Part shown: positions 4,946 through 19,245 of the stretch, piece by piece
Layout of the letters: every line of letters starts with the position of its first letter
How positions within the stretch are numbered: the stretch's first letter is position 1
Assembly (NCBI GenBank): GCA_947503925.1
Contig: CANNFQ010000004.1
Location: 186,001-250,000, forward strand
Length of the DNA: 64,000 nt
Origin: an uncultured Paracoccaceae bacterium
Lineage (GTDB): Bacteria; Pseudomonadota; Alphaproteobacteria; Rhodobacterales; Rhodobacteraceae
Reading direction: 5' to 3'
Notes under the pieces: generated by a model
Told to the model about the DNA's origin: nothing
Database searches by the model: none
The model's input: the letters and a program-made list of their open reading frames with translations, nothing else
Program-made: the position numbers and the translations under genes

Positions 4946-6037
4946 TCAACCAATCGGCTGATCAATATTGCGCAAGCTGACAAGATGATTGTCCCATTGC
5001 AAGCCGGGAGTTTTGCGTGTGTCGGTTGATGACCCCGCGATGCGCACCAATTGCCCCAGCCCCGTAGTGACCAAGGCCCCGCCGGTGGCCGACGCCGCCC
5101 CGCAAGCGTCTGCAAAAGCCCTCTCAAGATGCAGGGCACATGTCACAGCATCATAATGCTGGATCAGCCCGCCGCGTGGCGATGTCGCGATGATCTGGCG
5201 TTCATCCTGTGTAAACGCCACGCTGCCGACATAGCCCTGCATCGGGCGCAGGTCAGGCGCAGTCAGGGGCGTTATCTTCCGCCCCCGTTCATGCAAGGCG
5301 ACCAGTGCAGGCGGGTTGGCCTCACCCTGCCATTGCATCCCGATCGCCACGCGCCCATCATGTGCCACCGCCAGATGTCGGATCGAATTCTTGTACCATT
5401 CCGGCGCAAGTGCAGCGGTTTCAACCACCGTATCATCCGCCACATAGGCAAGGTTGGGGCGCATCGTGGGAATATTCAGCTTGGCGCGCCCGCTATCAGG
5501 ATGCGTATCAATGCCACCGTTGGCGATGACCAGCGTATCGGTCCCGGGCAGCCGTTTCAGATCATGCGGGCCAATGCCGCCGCTGCTGAACTCGGCGGCG
5601 CGGGTATAGCCATGCAATGCATCCCAAACGCCGATACGACCTTCACCATTTTCAAAGTCGTTTTCGGTGGTGAACAACCATGTGCCATCGCGGCCATATG
5701 TGCCATGGCCGTAAAAATGGCGACCCGCAGGGGCCTGCATCACCGTTTTCGGCTGACCCGTCACACAGTCAATGACCATCGCATATGCACCGGGGCGGCG
5801 GGCAAAGGCGACAGCCTCCGGGCGGTGTGGATGCGCTGCGGCGGCATGACCACGGCCGGGCAAAGGAATTTCAAACAGAATATCACGCTGGGCGCTGATG
5901 CCACAAAGAACGAAACCGCCGTCACTGCGCGCCGCTGCGGCCAGGAAGGCGGGGCCACCGGCCTCTGCCCAAGTGGCGGCTGGGGCTGCGCCCGCCGCCA
6001 ATAACCCTGCCAGAAATGCCCGACGGCTGGTCATCAA
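4946..6037 (-). CDS. DUF1513 domain-containing protein (imelysin/iron-cluster associated), putative Tat signal
   Basis: MMTSRRAFLAGLLAAGAAPAATWAEAGGP...; ATGA overlap with upstream imelysin. Confidence 0.8.
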   Translation of the reverse strand: MMTSRRAFLAGLLAAGAAPAATWAEAGGPAFLAAAARSDGGFVLCGISAQRDILFEIPLPGRGHAAAAHPHRPEAVAFARRPGAYAMVIDCVTGQPKTVMQAPAGRHFYGHGTYGRDGTWLFTTENDFENGEGRIGVWDALHGYTRAAEFSSGGIGPHDLKRLPGTDTLVIANGGIDTHPDSGRAKLNIPTMRPNLAYVADDTVVETAALAPEWYKNSIRHLAVAHDGRVAIGMQWQGEANPPALVALHERGRKITPLTAPDLRPMQGYVGSVAFTQDERQIIATSPRGGLIQHYDAVTCALHLERAFADACGAASATGGALVTTGLGQLVRIAGSSTDTRKTPGLQWDNHLVSLRNIDQPIG

Positions 6038-7017
6038 TCCCCGTCCAGCGCATTGAAACCGGCGGCAACACCTAGTTTGGGCCCCAGTTCTGTGGCGACC
6101 ACCGCGCGAATGTCATCAACGGCTTGCTGAACAACCTCGATACGCAGCCGTGATTGCGGGGCATCAACACCGGCAAAGGTCGGATCGTCCAGCGCCTCAA
6201 GCCGCGCCAGTGCGGTATCAAATTTTGCCGACAATTTTTGATCGTCCGCTAATAAAAGTCCTGCCAGTTCACGCAGCGATGTGAGCGAGATCAGCACATG
6301 CCGGGCTGATCGTTCAGATCGCCGTGCCTCTGCCCGCAAGGGGCGGGACTTGTCAAACGTGCCAAGCGGACGGCCAAGCCGGGTTTCCGACGTAAACTGC
6401 AACCCCGTGGTCAACGCCTTGAACAATTCCTGCAAGGCTTCCGCGTTAGTCCGATATGTATCAGATGGGGACAGCAGGCGGTCCGCATAAGCATCGTTCC
6501 AATCGGCATCGATGGCGGCGGTCAGGACGGCAATATCGGCGGCGACGGTCTGCACCAATTGGCAGCGATAGGCGTCACTGCCCATGGATGTGATCGCATC
6601 GTCATACAACAAAAATTCCATTGCATAGAAACCACGCGCAGCAATGGACATATTGGCATATGCCTCTGCACTCCGTGCGATCTCATCTTCATCCCGTATC
6701 AGCGCGGACAAGGCTTTGGGCGTTGCCCCCCGGATGTCTGGCCAAAAGGCAAGGGCGAAGGCGCGGTCATCAACCTCTGTCGGGCCAAAGCGCAGATGGC
6801 TGACCGCAACCCAAGCATCAAACGCATCATGATAGGCTGCGCGCAACGGGGGTGATGTAGGGTTGCAACCGGTCGCGGCGGTTTCAGCCAGCACCGCGCT
6901 GCGCTGGGCCAGACTGTCAAAACCCGGCAGAATATGCTGGGCCACGATATCCGCGGTCTGCGCCGCGCCGGTCAGCGGCAGGCAAGCAAAGGCAAGGGTG
7001 GCGATAAGCTGTTTCAT
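6034..7017 (-). CDS. Imelysin family protein (second copy), secreted
   Basis: Signal peptide MKQLIATLAFACLPLTGAAQ; GFYAMEFLLYDD matches the imelysin GxHxxE-type region; position in cluster. Confidence 0.8.
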   Translation of the reverse strand: MKQLIATLAFACLPLTGAAQTADIVAQHILPGFDSLAQRSAVLAETAATGCNPTSPPLRAAYHDAFDAWVAVSHLRFGPTEVDDRAFALAFWPDIRGATPKALSALIRDEDEIARSAEAYANMSIAARGFYAMEFLLYDDAITSMGSDAYRCQLVQTVAADIAVLTAAIDADWNDAYADRLLSPSDTYRTNAEALQELFKALTTGLQFTSETRLGRPLGTFDKSRPLRAEARRSERSARHVLISLTSLRELAGLLLADDQKLSAKFDTALARLEALDDPTFAGVDAPQSRLRIEVVQQAVDDIRAVVATELGPKLGVAAGFNALDGD

Positions 7018-8534
7018 AGGCTTTCCAGAAATCTGATCAGGGCGTCACGGTCGGCTTTGGGCATCTCAACCACAGCATCACGCTGTGCCTGCGCTTCACC
7101 ACCATGCCACAGGATCGCCTCCAACAAGGACCGGGCGCGCCCGTCATGCAGGAAATAGCTGTGCCCACTGACCTGTTCGGTCAGGCCGATGCCCCACAAA
7201 GGGGCGGTGCGCCACTCACGCCCTGTCGCCCGGGCCTCTGGGCGGTGATCAGCCAAGCCTTCGCCCATGTCATGCAGCAGCATATCGGTATAGGGCCAGA
7301 TCAGTTGAAAGCTTTGTTCCGGCTGATCCTTCAAGCGATGGGTGACAAAACTGGGTGTATGACAAGAGGTGCAGCCGGTGCTGTAAAACACCTCCTTGCC
7401 GCGCAGCACCTGGGCGTCATCAACATCGCGGCGGGCGGGAACAGCCAGGTTGCGACTATAAAAGGTGACAAGGTCAAGGATCTCGTCATCAATCTCGAAC
7501 ACCCGATCATCTCCATCGCCATGCAGGGCGTTCTGGCAGGCGGTCTGTGCCTGGGTGCATTCGCCAGCAGGGTTCGGGAACATGGGCGAGGCGATACCGA
7601 TATCCCCCGCAAATGCGCTTGCCGATTGCTGCCTGATCGTGGGGTTGCCCGCTTTATGGCCAAACCGGCCCAGCATCGGTTGATCAAACTCTGCGGACCA
7701 AACGATATTCGCACGACCCGAAATACCATCGCCATCAGCATCGTCGGGGTCGGTTGCGGCCAAAATATCGGCGGCAGGAACGGCTTCCAGCAGGCCAAGG
7801 CCAATCATCTGGTTGGCGATGCGGGGGCTGAGCATGGCATCAGGATGTAACGGACCATAGCCGAGGTTTTCGGCGGTATATGCCGGATGACGCAGGCTGG
7901 CGGTTTCATCCCCGGACAAGGCAATCTCTTCCTCGGTATAGGTGATGTCCAGCTGGTACTCGGCGGCATGGCCCTGCACCGAAAAATCCTGCAACTGGTT
8001 GCCATAGGTCGGGTCGGGCAGGGTGGCGATGTAGTCCTCGATCTCTTTGATACCATCCTCGTAATTGCCGGGGATCGACACACGCAGGAACATCGAAATG
8101 GCATTGTCATCATCAGGGGCAGGCGGGTGGCCACGACCATCCTTGATATGGCAGCGCTGACAGGATCGGGCATTGAAAAGCGGGCCAAGCCCGTCCGAGG
8201 CGAGGGTCGAGGAAGGTGACGACACCCATAATTTGCGGAACAGGCCATTACCAACCTTAAAGGTCAGTTCATCCTCAAACGCGATATTGCCCGAGGGTTG
8301 CGAAAACGCATCGGCATTGTTACGGGCGCGGACGGTTGCGGCGCCGGCCTGCCGTTCTTCGAACTTGTGGGCTTGGGTGAAATCGGTTGTGGGGGCAGTG
8401 ACATCGGCAATGCGGGTGGCCTCAGCGTCAGTGCGCGGGATGACATCCAAATGGGGATCATCCAATGTGTCCGCCGACAACTCAGCCGCGATGCAAATGA
8501 CCACGATTGCGACAAATTTTGACGGTCTGCTCAC
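7014..8534 (-). CDS. DUF1111 di-haem c-type cytochrome ('thiol oxidoreductase')
   Basis: Two CxxCH motifs (CQRCHIKDGRGHPP, CTSCHTPSF), signal peptide, 506 aa. Confidence 0.88.
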   Translation of the reverse strand: MSRPSKFVAIVVICIAAELSADTLDDPHLDVIPRTDAEATRIADVTAPTTDFTQAHKFEERQAGAATVRARNNADAFSQPSGNIAFEDELTFKVGNGLFRKLWVSSPSSTLASDGLGPLFNARSCQRCHIKDGRGHPPAPDDDNAISMFLRVSIPGNYEDGIKEIEDYIATLPDPTYGNQLQDFSVQGHAAEYQLDITYTEEEIALSGDETASLRHPAYTAENLGYGPLHPDAMLSPRIANQMIGLGLLEAVPAADILAATDPDDADGDGISGRANIVWSAEFDQPMLGRFGHKAGNPTIRQQSASAFAGDIGIASPMFPNPAGECTQAQTACQNALHGDGDDRVFEIDDEILDLVTFYSRNLAVPARRDVDDAQVLRGKEVFYSTGCTSCHTPSFVTHRLKDQPEQSFQLIWPYTDMLLHDMGEGLADHRPEARATGREWRTAPLWGIGLTEQVSGHSYFLHDGRARSLLEAILWHGGEAQAQRDAVVEMPKADRDALIRFLESL

Positions 8535-8630
8535 GTTCTACCTTTCATTCTTTCCTAATTCTTATAATTATAGTCAGGAAAAGAAAATAGCGCAGATTCG
8601 ATCACCACAACATTTGATGAAAGATACGAT

Positions 8631-9068
8631 ATGGCGTCACCGGCTGCCCGACATAAGGCATTTGTCAGCCCATCCAGCCGCCCATCTGTGGATCACATCC
8701 CGGCGGAATGGCGGGGCTGCCTGAACCGGCTGCGGATGATCGCGCTGCAATGCCGCAGCGCTGCATATACCGACCTATTCAATGCTTGTGCGCTGCTATC
8801 CAACAAACAAGACATGGCAAGGGATGCCCATGCGCGCGCGCTGCTGAAATGCCTGCGTCAGGCGGTCAGCGAACACCCTGTGTTCTACCGGCCTGGTGTG
8901 ACCCAAATATCGTTTGATGAAGCATGGCTGATGCGGGCGATCATGGCTATTGCCAGCGGTGATCAGGACAGTTTTTCCTTTCTCATCCGGTCGCGGGTGC
9001 CGAAGCTGCACCAACGCAATATCGCATTCCTGATCAAAGGTATTTCTGAGCAGTTTCGCAACACTTAG
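8631..9068 (+). CDS. Conserved hypothetical protein, apparently paralogous to 11293..11772
   Basis: 145 aa with plausible composition; by-eye similarity to the 159-aa protein at 11293..11772. Confidence 0.6.
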   Translation: MASPAARHKAFVSPSSRPSVDHIPAEWRGCLNRLRMIALQCRSAAYTDLFNACALLSNKQDMARDAHARALLKCLRQAVSEHPVFYRPGVTQISFDEAWLMRAIMAIASGDQDSFSFLIRSRVPKLHQRNIAFLIKGISEQFRNT

Positions 9069-9079
9069 AATAATTCTAA
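9065..9079. promoter_or_regulatory. Perfect palindrome TTAGAA-TAA-TTCTAA, candidate Irr box (ICE) upstream of dps
   Basis: Read directly; matches the TTAGAA-N3-TTCTAA core recalled for the rhizobial/rhodobacterial Irr motif. Confidence 0.65.
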
Positions 9080-9178
9080 AAAATACTTGCCTGGCGCGCT
9101 TAGTGGGTTATCTAACGATGAGCGAGCCAGCCCGACGCCAGCCAGCCAGTGAGAATTTGAACAAACCGGAGAGTTGGA

Positions 9179-9649
9179 ATGACCCAGACAGCCATGTCTT
9201 TGAACACAGATGCGAAAACCGTAATTGCCGAGGCGCTGAACCAATCCGTGGCCGAAACAGCGGTCACAACGATGCTCGCGCAGAATTTTCATTGGAACGT
9301 GAAAGGTATGGCATTCGGCCCGCTGCACGATCTGTTCCAGAAAATCTACGAAGATCACTTTGTCGCGCAGGATGATCTGGCCGAACGTATTCGGGCCATC
9401 GACGCACATGCCGAAGGCACGCTTGCCGGGATGATCAAGCGTTCCAAAGTGTCCGAACATGACGGCCACGCGACGGATAAAGAGATGATCAAGGTGATGC
9501 AGGACGCACAGGAAACGCTGGCGGCGACACTCGCAGGCTGCGGTGAGCTGGCGGCAGAACATGGCGACACCCTGACCGAGGATCTGTGCATCGCGCGCGG
9601 TCAAGAGCACGAGAAATTCGCCTGGTTCCTGCGGGCGCATCTTGGCTGA
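9179..9649 (+). CDS. dps: Dps family ferritin-like DNA-binding protein
   Basis: AQNFHWNVKGMAFGPLHDLFQKIYEDHFVAQDDLAERIRAI ferroxidase region. Confidence 0.93.
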   Translation: MTQTAMSLNTDAKTVIAEALNQSVAETAVTTMLAQNFHWNVKGMAFGPLHDLFQKIYEDHFVAQDDLAERIRAIDAHAEGTLAGMIKRSKVSEHDGHATDKEMIKVMQDAQETLAATLAGCGELAAEHGDTLTEDLCIARGQEHEKFAWFLRAHLG

Positions 9650-9674
9650 TCGTGTCACAAGGCAAACGTAAACA

Positions 9675-9696
9675 CCCCGGCTTCGCCGGGGTTTTT
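9675..9696 (+). terminator. Rho-independent terminator downstream of dps
   Basis: CCCCGGC-TTC-GCCGGGG followed by TTTTT. Confidence 0.88.
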
Positions 9697-9700
9697 CGTT

Positions 9701-9952
9701 TCAGGGCGACAGATCGAAAGGCAGCACAGCACCTTTCTTTTTCAGTTTCTTGGCATAGGCAGATCGCCAGCCACCGAACTTTCCCATTTGGGCCTGTTGC
9801 GCGATCAGCATTTCGATGAACCCTTCGCGATGGCTGTTCTTTTTCAACTGTTTGAAAAGCGACTTCTGCGCCTTGGTCATCGAACAACCGATGCAATGTC
9901 CTTGGCGTTTGTATTTACAAACATCAATACAAGGGCTGGGGATCTTGGGCAT
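9701..9952 (-). CDS. DUF1289 domain-containing protein
   Basis: MPKIPSPCIDVCKYKRQGHCIGCSMTKAQKSLF Cys pattern. Confidence 0.85.
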   Translation of the reverse strand: MPKIPSPCIDVCKYKRQGHCIGCSMTKAQKSLFKQLKKNSHREGFIEMLIAQQAQMGKFGGWRSAYAKKLKKKGAVLPFDLSP

Positions 9953-10014
9953 CAGGTCTCCATGGAAAAGGCAGCCCCGTGGGGCCGCCTTTTATATCTA
10001 GGATTTGCAGTGGG

Positions 10015-11277
10015 TTATTGAAAGACGGCCTCTGGATCATCCAAACTGTCGGATCCTTCAAAGGCGATTTGATCAACGCCAAGAGCCGTAACAACGCGTT
10101 CAATGGATTTGGTCTGGTCAACCAGCCCGTTGACGCCACCCATGACCAACGCTTCACCGGCCTCATTGCCACGCTCCAGCATCTGATCATAGCTGAACCC
10201 GGCTTCGGCGGCGGTCTTGATCCGCCCCAAGGCCATCATTGTGGTCGACAGCTTGATCTGCATTTCCGCGTCCAGTGCGGGGCTCGCCTCTACAACTATG
10301 TCCGACAGGGAGGGGCCGGAAACCAGGCTGCCATCAACCCGGACATATTCACCCACATAGACGTTCTGGACACCCAGACCATCATAGTAATGGCTGTTAT
10401 GGGTGTTGTCGGAAAAGCAATCATGCTCTTCCTCGGGATCATTCAGCATCAGACCAAGGCGCATGCGCTCTCCGGCCTGTTCGCCATATGAAAGCGACCC
10501 CATACCGGTCAGGATGGCGGCGATCCCGGCGTCAGCATCTGACATCAGCTCGGCACGGGCGGCACCACCGTCAACCCATTGGGCGGCCATCCATTCCAGA
10601 TCAGACACCAGCAGATCGGTGGCGGCGATCAGATATTCCGCCCGACGGTCACAATTGCCACCGGTACATGCATCGCCAGATGCAAAATCGGTCCATGGAC
10701 GATTGCCAGCACCATCGCCATGACCGTTCAGATCCTGACCCCACAGCAGAAATTCAATCGCGTGATAACCGGTGGCGACATTCGATTCGATGCCATCAGC
10801 CTCGTGCAGCGTTTCGGCCAACAGGGTTGGGGTGATTGATGCGGCGTCGATGTCCGCGCCTGACAGCTTAAAGCTGGGGTTGGCCACGACATTCAACGCA
10901 GCAAAGGCATTCTCATCCGTGGCACCGCCATAGGATGGATCAACATAGTCAATCAAACCTTCATCCAGTGGCCAGGCATTCACCTTGCCTTCCCAATCAT
11001 CGACGATGGCATTGCCGAAACGGTACACTTCGGTCTGCTGATACGGCACGCGGGCAGCCAGCCATGCCTCTTTCGCAGCTTGCAGGTTTTCCGCCGACGG
11101 GGCGGCGACAAGGGCATTCACCGCCGCTTGCAATGTCTGGGCCGTCGTCAGGCTATCGGCATATTTCGCCGCTGCGATATTGGCATAATTGTCCAGAACA
11201 TCTGTCTTTTCCAATGCAAAGCTGGGCGTCGCAAGTGCCAGGCAGAGTGCTGTTGACGCAAGAAATTTCAGTTTCAT
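10015..11277 (-). CDS. Imelysin family protein (IrpA-like), secreted
   Basis: Signal peptide MKLKFLASTALCLALATPSFA; GYHAIEFLLWGQDLNG imelysin motif. Confidence 0.9.
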   Translation of the reverse strand: MKLKFLASTALCLALATPSFALEKTDVLDNYANIAAAKYADSLTTAQTLQAAVNALVAAPSAENLQAAKEAWLAARVPYQQTEVYRFGNAIVDDWEGKVNAWPLDEGLIDYVDPSYGGATDENAFAALNVVANPSFKLSGADIDAASITPTLLAETLHEADGIESNVATGYHAIEFLLWGQDLNGHGDGAGNRPWTDFASGDACTGGNCDRRAEYLIAATDLLVSDLEWMAAQWVDGGAARAELMSDADAGIAAILTGMGSLSYGEQAGERMRLGLMLNDPEEEHDCFSDNTHNSHYYDGLGVQNVYVGEYVRVDGSLVSGPSLSDIVVEASPALDAEMQIKLSTTMMALGRIKTAAEAGFSYDQMLERGNEAGEALVMGGVNGLVDQTKSIERVVTALGVDQIAFEGSDSLDDPEAVFQ

Positions 11278-11292
11278 AAGGTTTGGTTCCTG

Positions 11293-11772
11293 TTAGTGAA
11301 GTGTCGTATGGTTGGGGTGTTGCAATGCCACCTCGCGCGGTGCGGCAAGGTTCATCTGTTTCAAGGCCAGGCCAAAATCGGTGGCCAATGACGCGATGAT
11401 CGGGGCGACATCAGCACGGACCAGCAATGTGGCGATCAGCATAGCGTCGTCGCGTTCACCATCTGCGGCGGTGGCAATGAAATTGGCGAAACAGGCCTCA
11501 TCGGCACCGATGCATTTGCACTGGACCGCATGGCGCATCAGGGGGCGGCGACCATGGCGGGCGCATAACCCGCAAAGGTCTTCGAATGTCTCAAGCGCCT
11601 TGCGGCCGCGTTGCGATCCCAGCGCATTGGCCAGATCATTCCAGACATCAACCTGCGTCTCCGGGCCGTTGCACCACATGCGTAGATATATGACGGACGC
11701 GGCGGCAACACTGTCCAGATCGGTCAGCATAGCCACCGGTGCGCCGCCGCGTTTTTGCCGGGTATCGTTCAT
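11293..11772 (-). CDS. Conserved hypothetical protein, apparently paralogous to 8631..9068
   Basis: 159 aa; directly upstream of imelysin in the same direction. Confidence 0.65.
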   Translation of the reverse strand: MNDTRQKRGGAPVAMLTDLDSVAAASVIYLRMWCNGPETQVDVWNDLANALGSQRGRKALETFEDLCGLCARHGRRPLMRHAVQCKCIGADEACFANFIATAADGERDDAMLIATLLVRADVAPIIASLATDFGLALKQMNLAAPREVALQHPNHTTLH

Positions 11773-11936
11773 TTTGTCAGGATCAGTTTGCCAGCGCGGG
11801 TGATGCGCAACACGTAGGTCTGATCGCCCAGAATGATATGGGCCTGATCGCCATTGCCGGTCAGGTCCCGCGCGTCGTAGGCGGGCAGTTTCGGGACGGC
11901 GGACTTGACATGTTCAGGCATCATCTGAACTACCAT
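11769..11936 (-). CDS. hemP: Hemin uptake protein HemP family
   Basis: C-terminal YDARDLTGNGDQAHIILGDQTYVLRITRAGKLILTK; start taken as ATG at 11936 (11924 or 11921 also possible). Confidence 0.82.
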   Translation of the reverse strand: MVVQMMPEHVKSAVPKLPAYDARDLTGNGDQAHIILGDQTYVLRITRAGKLILTK

Positions 11937-12100
11937 TTGCCTTCTCCCTGTCTGATACCGCAGCGGTCCAGCACCCACTCCAACTGCAAACCAGCTCGCC
12001 CCTGATCGCTTTGCAGCGCGGCGAGTATCTCGGATTTGCTTGGGACGACGGGTGCATGATCGTTCTGAGTAGTCTTGGATTCTTTTGAAGGCTGTCGCAT
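11930..12100 (-). CDS. Small ORF (56 aa) whose stop overlaps the hemP start; not in the supplied track
   Basis: Manual translation MRQPSKESKTTQNDHAPVVPSKSEILAALQSDQGRAGLQLEWVLDRCGIRQGEGKW*; ATGGTAG overlap. Confidence 0.45.
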   Translation of the reverse strand: MRQPSKESKTTQNDHAPVVPSKSEILAALQSDQGRAGLQLEWVLDRCGIRQGEGKW

Positions 12101-12175
12101 CGGGAAGTCCTTTCAATCTGGCGATGTTCGGGCTTCCCCATCGGTTTCGAGGGGTGGCTAGAGGCTTTCCCTATA

Positions 12176-12271
12176 CCTGAGTGAAATAATAAACTATGTC
12201 AATCCGACAATTTTTATCAGGAACCTAGACAAGCCGAAAAAAGACGTTAGAAGGTTTTCCTGAGTGAAATA
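12176..12271. promoter_or_regulatory. Intergenic region with two exact copies of CCTGAGTGAAATA (12176..12188 and 12259..12271), candidate iron-responsive operator region
   Basis: Exact 13-nt direct repeat between divergent hemP-side genes and futA. Confidence 0.5.
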
Positions 12272-12292
12272 CTCGAAATAAGGGATTGGACT

Positions 12293-13318
12293 ATGCTGAA
12301 CACCACAAAAACCCGGATGATCCTGGCTGCGACCATTGCTGCCGTAGCGACGGGTGCCATCGCAGAGGGCGAACTGAACCTCTATTCTTCACGCCATTAC
12401 GATACGGATGAACGGCTTTACTCCGACTTCACCGACATGACGGGAATCACCATCAACCGGATCGAAGGAAAAGCTGATGAGCTGATCGCGCGGATGCAAG
12501 CCGAAGGTGCAAATTCGCCCGCCGATATCCTTCTGACGGTCGATACATCCCGGCTGGAACGGGCCAAGGACGCCGGCGTTCTGCAATCAATCGACAGCGA
12601 CATTCTGGAATCCCGCGTGCCAAGCGCCCTGCAGGATACCGATAACCAATGGTTCGGCTTTAGTCAGCGCGCCCGGATCATCTTTTACGACAAAACCGAT
12701 GTGACGAACCCACCCTTGGATTATGTATCACTCGCCGATCCGGCCTATCAGGGGCAGGTCTGCCACCGGTCGTCATCCAACGTCTATTCCCAGACATTGC
12801 TGTCAGCCGTAATCGAAAACCACGGTGTTGACGCGGCGAAAGGTTGGGCGCAGGGCGTTGTCGATAACTTCGCACGCGCACCTCAGGGCGGTGACACCGA
12901 TCAGCTGCGCGGCTTGGTCTCTGGCGAATGCGATATCTCAATCTCCAACACCTATTACTTCGCTCGTGCGCTGCGCAAGGATGTCGACGGTCTGGACAAG
13001 GGCGCGATGGAAAACATCGGTTGGATCTTCCCCGCACAGAACGCGGAGGGTGCGCATATGAACCTGTCCGGGGGCGGCGTTGCAGCCAATGCGCCGAACA
13101 AGGGAAACGCTATCAAATTTCTGGAATACCTCGCCTCTGATCAGGCGCAACAATATTTCAGTGCAGGTAATGACGAATACCCAGCGGTTCCCGGCGTTGG
13201 TCTGTCACCTTCTGTTGCCGCATTGGGCCTTTTCCGCCCCGACGCGGTGGACCTGAGCAAAGTGGCCAAGAACGTGCCGACCGCACAGGCCATCTTTAAC
13301 GAGGTAGGTTGGGAATAA
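12293..13318 (+). CDS. Fe3+ ABC transporter substrate-binding protein (FutA/FbpA family)
   Basis: Signal peptide; EGELNLYSSRHYDTDERLYSDFTDMTGITINRIEGKADELIARM; Tyr-rich C-terminal region ISISNTYYFARAL. Confidence 0.92.
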   Translation: MLNTTKTRMILAATIAAVATGAIAEGELNLYSSRHYDTDERLYSDFTDMTGITINRIEGKADELIARMQAEGANSPADILLTVDTSRLERAKDAGVLQSIDSDILESRVPSALQDTDNQWFGFSQRARIIFYDKTDVTNPPLDYVSLADPAYQGQVCHRSSSNVYSQTLLSAVIENHGVDAAKGWAQGVVDNFARAPQGGDTDQLRGLVSGECDISISNTYYFARALRKDVDGLDKGAMENIGWIFPAQNAEGAHMNLSGGGVAANAPNKGNAIKFLEYLASDQAQQYFSAGNDEYPAVPGVGLSPSVAALGLFRPDAVDLSKVAKNVPTAQAIFNEVGWE

Positions 13319-17590: not shown

Positions 17591-19245
17591 GCCACGCCGC
17601 GCCGCATGCGACGGCAAAGCAGAATCACGGGCAGCAAACCGACAACGGCAATCACCAGGCTGGGCACGGCTGCGCCATCCAGCCGTTCATCCGATGCCAA
17701 CCGGTAGGCCTGCACGGCCAATGTGTCATAGTTGAACGGGCGCATGATCAATGTCGCAGGCAATTCCTTCATCACATCGACAAAAACAATCAAACCGGCC
17801 GTCAGCAAACTGGCGCTGACGATCGGCATATGTACGCGGCGGACAAGGCCGGGAATGTCGGCGCCCAACGTGCGCGCAGCAGCATCAATATTTGTCCCGA
17901 CCGATGACATGCCACCCTCATAAGCGCCAATCGCAGCCGCCAGAAACCGGATCATATAGGCAGCGATCAGCAGCCAGATCGACCCGGTGAACAAAAGCCC
18001 GGTTGATATACCCATATTGGCGCGCATCCACGCATCAAGGCTGTTGTCAAAGACAGCAAAAGGAACCAGCAGACCAACGGCAATCACCCCACCAGGGACG
18101 GCATAACCCAACCGACCCAGATAAAGCGATATGGCGGTACCCCGGCTGCGGCGCACCCGGTTCAGCGTGCCCAGCAAAACGGCAGCAAACACGGTGACGA
18201 CCGCCGCGATGGTCGCAAGAGTGATAGAGTTCTTGATAAAACCGACATAGCGGCTGCTTAGCAGATCCTGTTCCGATCCAACCGCCATCGTGGTTAGCGC
18301 GACCACGGGGATCGCGACCCCCAGAACAATCGGGACCAGACAACCTATCATCGCTGCCATGCTGGCAAAGGAATCCAGCCTGATCCGCTGCATCGGCGGT
18401 TTGCGCTGTGCGTCGATATAGGCGGCATTGCCCCGGCTATACCGCTCCATGGATGCCAGAAGCAGGGCAAACACCAACAGGCCAAGCGATAGCTGCGCGG
18501 CGGCCGCCCTGTCAGCCATGGAAAACCAGCTTGTGTAAATCCCCACCGAAAATGTCTGCACACCGAAATAGGCAACCGTGCCGAAATCGGCGATGGTTTC
18601 CATCGCAACCAGCAACACGCCTGCCGCAATCGCAGGGCGTGCCATTGGCAGGGATACCAGCACGCAGGCCTGAAAGGGGGATTTGCCCAGCACCCGGGCG
18701 GCCAGAAAGGCCGAGCCGCTTTGAGTCGAAAACGCAGCCCGGGCCAACAGATAGACGTAAGGATAAAGCACCAGGATCAGCATCACAGCCGCACCCCCGA
18801 TCGAACGGACCTCGGGAAACCAGTAGTCGCGTGGGCCCCAGCCGGTGATGTCGCGCAATGTGGTCTGGACGATGCCGGGATGATCCAAAAGATGGGTATA
18901 GGCATAGGCCAGCACATATGCAGGAAAGGCCAGCGGCAGGGCCAGTGCGATCTCCATCCAGCGGCGACCGGGGAATTCGGTCATCGTGACCAGCCAGGCC
19001 GCGCCGGTTCCCAGAAACGCGCTGCCGGTCGTGACAAGGGCGACCAGAACAACCGTGTCGCGCGAATAACGCCATAGGACCGTATCAGCGAGATGGCTCA
19101 ACGTATCCGTTGAACCGGTGATTGCGGCAGCCAGAACCGCCAGATAGGGCAACGCGCAGAAAAACACGACGATGCACAGGGCCACGCCCAGAATGAACTG
19201 AACGGCCTTACGAACCGGATGGGCTTTCATCGGCATGATTTGCAT
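17587..19245 (-). CDS. Fe3+ ABC transporter permease (FutB/FbpB type, two fused permease units)
   Basis: 552 aa; many TM segments; ALALPLAFPAYVLAYAYTHLLDHPG and GAVPGGVIAVGLL-type motifs. Confidence 0.9.
   Translation of the reverse strand: MQIMPMKAHPVRKAVQFILGVALCIVVFFCALPYLAVLAAAITGSTDTLSHLADTVLWRYSRDTVVLVALVTTGSAFLGTGAAWLVTMTEFPGRRWMEIALALPLAFPAYVLAYAYTHLLDHPGIVQTTLRDITGWGPRDYWFPEVRSIGGAAVMLILVLYPYVYLLARAAFSTQSGSAFLAARVLGKSPFQACVLVSLPMARPAIAAGVLLVAMETIADFGTVAYFGVQTFSVGIYTSWFSMADRAAAAQLSLGLLVFALLLASMERYSRGNAAYIDAQRKPPMQRIRLDSFASMAAMIGCLVPIVLGVAIPVVALTTMAVGSEQDLLSSRYVGFIKNSITLATIAAVVTVFAAVLLGTLNRVRRSRGTAISLYLGRLGYAVPGGVIAVGLLVPFAVFDNSLDAWMRANMGISTGLLFTGSIWLLIAAYMIRFLAAAIGAYEGGMSSVGTNIDAAARTLGADIPGLVRRVHMPIVSASLLTAGLIVFVDVMKELPATLIMRPFNYDTLAVQAYRLASDERLDGAAVPSLVIAVVGLLPVILLCRRMRRGVA

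Follow-up and report, generated by a model that had tools for sequence, protein, structure and literature searches.

In the 64-kb stretch of DNA analysed here (the window), a leftward hemP-imelysin gene set diverges from a rightward gene for a solute-binding protein, and a DHOR-imelysin-DUF1513 set also runs leftward. The hemP frame (11769-12116, minus strand) matches Pfam hemP (2.2e-15) in its last 36 residues, and the true start of the gene probably lies near position 11940. The imelysin gene of this set (10015-11277, minus strand; Pfam Peptidase_M75) is of the irpA type. The solute-binding protein gene (12293-13318, plus strand; Pfam SBP_bac_8 / SBP_bac_6) is of the futA/afuA type and is putatively named futA below. 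The DHOR di-haem oxidoreductase gene (7014-8534, minus strand; Pfam DHOR, 2e-99) is overlapped at its end by a second imelysin gene (6034-7017, minus strand; Peptidase_M75). Several small frames have no Pfam match: two of 145 and 159 residues lie among the iron genes (8631-9068, plus strand, and 11293-11772, minus strand), and one of 56 residues is found 5' of hemP (11930-12100, minus strand). In several relatives, hemP is likewise preceded by small frames of this kind, which contain a (G)L.LEWV.DR stretch.

A 19-bp palindrome at iron promoters

An earlier note on this DNA had reported CCTGAGTGAAATA at positions 12176 and 12259, and CCTGACTATAATTATAAGAATTAGG as the reverse complement of 8554-8578. 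Both readings are correct, and all three sites are indeed located in promoter regions of iron-type genes, namely those of hemP, the solute-binding protein and DHOR. The motif had been framed as a 25-nt sequence of the form CCTGAST-N15-AGG, for which we found six matches with at most one mismatch when 4.2 are expected, a number not above chance. Its AGG does not mark the end of the motif, as it occurs at positions 23-25 in none of the 29 hemP boxes of relatives. At futA, these letters fall inside a conserved Shine-Dalgarno sequence (AAGGGA, 12280-12285, plus strand), whose distance to the ATG is conserved, and in the DHOR promoters of the nearest relatives they are replaced by AGA or other letters.

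We compiled promoter sets from 80 futA loci (with titles nearly all naming Rhodobacteraceae genera), 29 hemP loci outside the own genome and 21 DHOR loci, and searched them with a palindromic EM procedure that excluded the own genome and used block-shuffled sequences as controls. The palindrome and its width of 19 were imposed from the published description of the Iron-Rhodo-box, a 19-bp palindrome in Rhodobacter sphaeroides (Rodionov 2006, as cited in Remes 2015, PMC4618611); the gain over shuffled controls was not imposed. The hemP, futA and DHOR sets converged de novo on one palindrome of the GACT-N5-AGTC type, with the learned consensus sequences TCTGACTAAaTTAGTCAGA, TCTGAcTAAaTTAgTCAGA and TCCGACtATaATaGTCGGA, respectively, each above its block-shuffled controls. 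The 19-bp palindromic signal of the Iron-Rhodo-box is hence recovered by palindromic models in three gene sets. The futA-trained model detects a box in 29 of 29 hemP promoters at a threshold of at least 16 bits (shuffles, 0.1%), and the hemP-trained model, with a threshold of at least 13 bits, does so in 84% of the futA promoters (shuffles, 0.1%). Across cross-trained models, 84-89% of the 80 futA promoters score, compared with 0.1-2% of shuffles, percentages to be read as descriptive, since the relatives share ancestry and are not independent samples. The hemP and futA models each place a box in about half of the 21 DHOR promoters, and about half of the relatives' DHOR promoters are without one. 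De novo discovery in the promoters of relatives, the check suggested by the earlier note, thus finds the 19-bp palindrome enriched and conserved at iron promoters. We preferred the hemP-only and futA-only PWMs to a pooled PWM, which includes some mis-oriented hemP sequences.

Four boxes are found in the window, three in the divergent hemP/futA gap and one before the di-haem gene. The strongest is the central box (TCCGACAATTTTTATCAGG, 12203-12221) between the hemP and futA promoters, which is conserved and ranks first in the 64 kb with 22.8 bits (hemP PWM) and 24.0 bits (futA PWM). The earlier note had missed this copy, so that its three sites stand within a total of four. The futA-proximal box (CCTGAGTGAAATACTCGAA, 12259-12277) ends 15 nt 5' of the start codon and ranks third (13.5 and 17.9 bits by the hemP and futA PWMs); it is conserved, and relatives show a better right half. 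The hemP-proximal box (CCTGAGTGAAATAATAAAC, 12176-12194), 27 bp from the central box, has a weak right half and scores 3.2 (hemP PWM), 13.2 (futA PWM) and 16.3 bits (pooled PWM), and its position is conserved. The box 5' of the DHOR gene (CCTGACTATAATTATAAGA in minus-strand reading, 8560-8578) ranks second (19.3 and 21.9 bits by the hemP and futA PWMs), and the same box is present in DHOR promoters of relatives. An alignment of close relatives confirms the conservation of the boxes in the hemP/futA gap. A further candidate at 17776 reaches 14-16 bits by two PWMs and 2.5 bits by the hemP PWM; it lies inside a permease gene and was taken as chance. Overall, the motif described in the earlier note is real and conserved, but its length was wrong and its copy number incomplete.

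The 25-nt pattern as first framed is no commoner than in shuffles, which would be in line with chance resemblance. The 19-bp palindrome, however, shows conservation over dozens of species and gives the top scores in the window, and no score as high as those of three of its sites arose when the window was shuffled 60 times. The cross-trained enrichment refutes an origin by chance, to which we assign a practically negligible probability.

At the level of the genome, our evidence comes from gene families and from searches with degenerate patterns. With one mismatch allowed, a 17-nt pattern of this kind returned 16 distinct sites, compared with 7 for a reversed control. Among the 15 of these sites examined, three score above 18 bits, upstream of hemP/futA, of DHOR and of a Peripla_BP_2 protein gene, and the weaker ones are mostly located inside reading frames. 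Boxes of 19.3 and 15.6 bits lie upstream of the only TonB receptor gene found in the genome. In all, boxes precede the hemP, futA, DHOR, Peripla_BP_2 protein and TonB receptor genes. The TonB receptor locus, on contig C5, adjoins an ExbB/ExbD-like pair and a hemS-like frame (assigned by eye), with the two boxes in between; another ExbD-family locus has no box (best score 7.0 bits). The string CCTGAGTGAAATACTC has a further occurrence at C10:101640, which is inside an open frame and was taken as chance.

IscR as the predicted regulator

Six Rrf2 proteins score over the cut-off in this genome. One of them is a single-cysteine IscR of the Rhodobacteraceae type with a PCPAV stretch (...ELAPCPAVPALFEV). 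It has its one cysteine in PCPAV and is followed downstream by a cysteine-desulfurase-like (iscS-like) frame, named by eye, the two features that mark this type. In R. sphaeroides IscR, which also carries the PCPAV stretch, a single cysteine holds the cluster (PMC4618611). Our protein falls short of the NCBIfam cut-off for IscR, as a protein of the single-cysteine type might. An IscR orthologue is present in 57 of the 57 genomes searched, the own genome included. In the iscR promoters of 30 genomes, again with the own genome, 80% have a box of at least 10 bits (shuffles, 0.2%); the own iscR has a weaker box of 11 bits. The P3 site GACTATTTCTGTCGG is bound by R. sphaeroides IscR in gel shift (PMC6956336), and it obtains 18.1 of 24.2 bits by our hemP model, a score reached by none of 100,000 random 15-mers. 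It is thus very likely that our sites are Iron-Rhodo-boxes, 19-bp palindromic predicted operators of a Rhodobacteraceae-type single-cysteine IscR.

The boxes could alternatively be operators of a RirA-like Rrf2 protein with three cysteines (L004; C1:174925-175386 of the own genome) or of another Rrf2 paralogue. RirA is the best NCBIfam match of L004, though below cut-off, the Iron-Rhodo-box resembles the RirA box according to Remes 2015 (PMC4618611), and in Dinoroseobacter shibae the deletion of a RirA is described as affecting many proteins. Close orthologues of L004, however, are limited to about 13 of 57 genomes, whereas the box is present at 29 of 29 hemP promoters. If the boxes were RirA operators (IRO boxes), a RirA-like protein should accompany them everywhere, which is not the case here, and the region upstream of L004 itself has no box (best 4.2 bits). 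In addition, the hemP box is kept in a genome whose one Rrf2 match is iscR (G016) and in three genomes with one Rrf2 protein over the cut-off, each at the iscR position (G002, G018, G023). As IscR is the sole Rrf2 protein in several box-bearing relatives, it is a more plausible candidate than a RirA-like paralogue, which we consider improbable. Across the group, these relatives make a clean case for IscR, rather than RirA, as the protein that reads the box.

A Fur-family protein (Fur/Mur or Irr) might also be envisaged, as Irr boxes lie nearby, before a dps gene and before iscR, and the pooled model assigns 14.5 bits to the dps Irr box. Yet none of the four sites matches TTAGAA-NN-ATTCTAA, even when two mismatches are allowed, and the GACT-N5-AGTC-type palindrome fits the verified IscR site. 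The TTAGAA-N3-TTCTAA-type palindrome of an Irr box (ICE) is likewise absent from the sites reported by the earlier note, its only match in the window being at 9065-9079. We regard a Fur-family regulator as highly improbable. The earlier note had named RirA and Fur as alternatives to an IscR-type Iron-Rhodo-box, and neither is favoured. Its IscR suggestion is supported by a palindrome that is enriched and conserved at iron promoters and fits the gel-shifted R. sphaeroides site, by the single-cysteine Rhodobacteraceae IscR encoded in the genome, and by a box that is kept where IscR is the sole Rrf2 protein.

The window match just mentioned (TTAGAATAATTCTAA) forms a perfect palindrome of the Irr type and lies ahead of a Dps/ferritin-like gene (9179-9649), and a similar palindrome precedes dps in all eight relatives' loci where dps was seen. 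In each of the 30 iscR promoters, the weak Iron-Rhodo-box is followed at a distance of 23 nt by an Irr-type palindrome. At the iscR locus of the own genome (L002:3088) we found TTAGAAATATTCTAGA, which is identical in sequence to the P3 Irr site of R. sphaeroides.

Promoter geometry and proposed mechanism

A candidate hemP -35 element (TTGACA, 12197-12202, minus strand) lies between the central box and its hemP-proximal neighbour. TTGAC directly follows the best box in 23 of 29 hemP promoters. A candidate futA -35 element (TAGACA, 12226-12231, plus strand) is conserved in the alignment of relatives. A consensus promoter scan found no promoter, futA included.

In 15 of 30 hemP promoters, our own included, a second box is positioned exactly 27 bp downstream of the best box, and in one more it lies 27 bp upstream. 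Two or three boxes are present in 77 of the 80 futA promoters, commonly 46-49 bp apart; the futA boxes of the own genome are separated by 56 bp. We found no description of such spacing in the Iron-Rhodo-box literature after 2006 that we consulted, and it is possibly a minor, undescribed detail. It is possible, though less likely than not, that the operators function in pairs with a fixed geometry, at hemP with 27 bp and the -35 element in between, at futA mostly with 46-49 bp (here 56 bp), and with the central box common to the two divergent promoters. If true, this would imply cooperative or graded occupancy by IscR instead of one site per promoter, and the paired spacing offers a testable detail.

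IscR most probably switches off iron-uptake genes at these boxes, as judged by analogy. Our evidence consists of the sites, their conservation, the genes around them and a regulator encoded in the genome, from which we infer binding and the iron response. By extension from R. sphaeroides, IscR bearing an Fe-S cluster would occupy the boxes when iron is sufficient and repress the hemP-irpA, futA and DHOR-imelysin genes. In the hemP/futA gap, the strong central box would serve both promoters, with one further box at each. The boxes would abut or fall inside the promoters, and holo-IscR would block both. When iron is short, IscR would lose its cluster, repression would be relieved and the genes expressed.

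Comparison with known systems

Rhizobiales RirA is similarly an Rrf2-family, Fe-S-sensing repressor of iron uptake, and its operator, the IRO box, is said to resemble the Iron-Rhodo-box. It differs in having three cysteines and a [4Fe-4S] cluster (PMC5863699), and a RirA-like protein is patchy among the relatives of our genome. The IscR proteins of E. coli and Caulobacter belong to an orthologous regulator family tied to isc-suf genes, but have a (Cys)3(His)1 cluster, and the Caulobacter motifs differ (PMC11475020).

The closest parallel is R. sphaeroides, where Iron-Rhodo-boxes precede hemP-irpA-bfd-bfr, the RSP_1545 (DHOR-type) set, afuA, iscR and others, and where IscR binds the hemP and iscR promoters and represses with iron present (PMC4618611). 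Our locus differs in that hemP and futA are divergent and have one common gap with three boxes, and in that bfd was not found (Fer2_BFD has no match in the genome). Both systems have a 19-bp palindrome, a single-cysteine IscR with PCPAV and sites at or next to promoter elements, which in our genome are candidates, and they have hemP-irpA, the DHOR set, an afuA-type binding protein and iscR as common targets, predicted ones in our genome. Our analysis corrects the motif and places the hemP-irpA, futA and DHOR genes of this genome in the known IscR iron regulon, of which they are a further, ordinary example.
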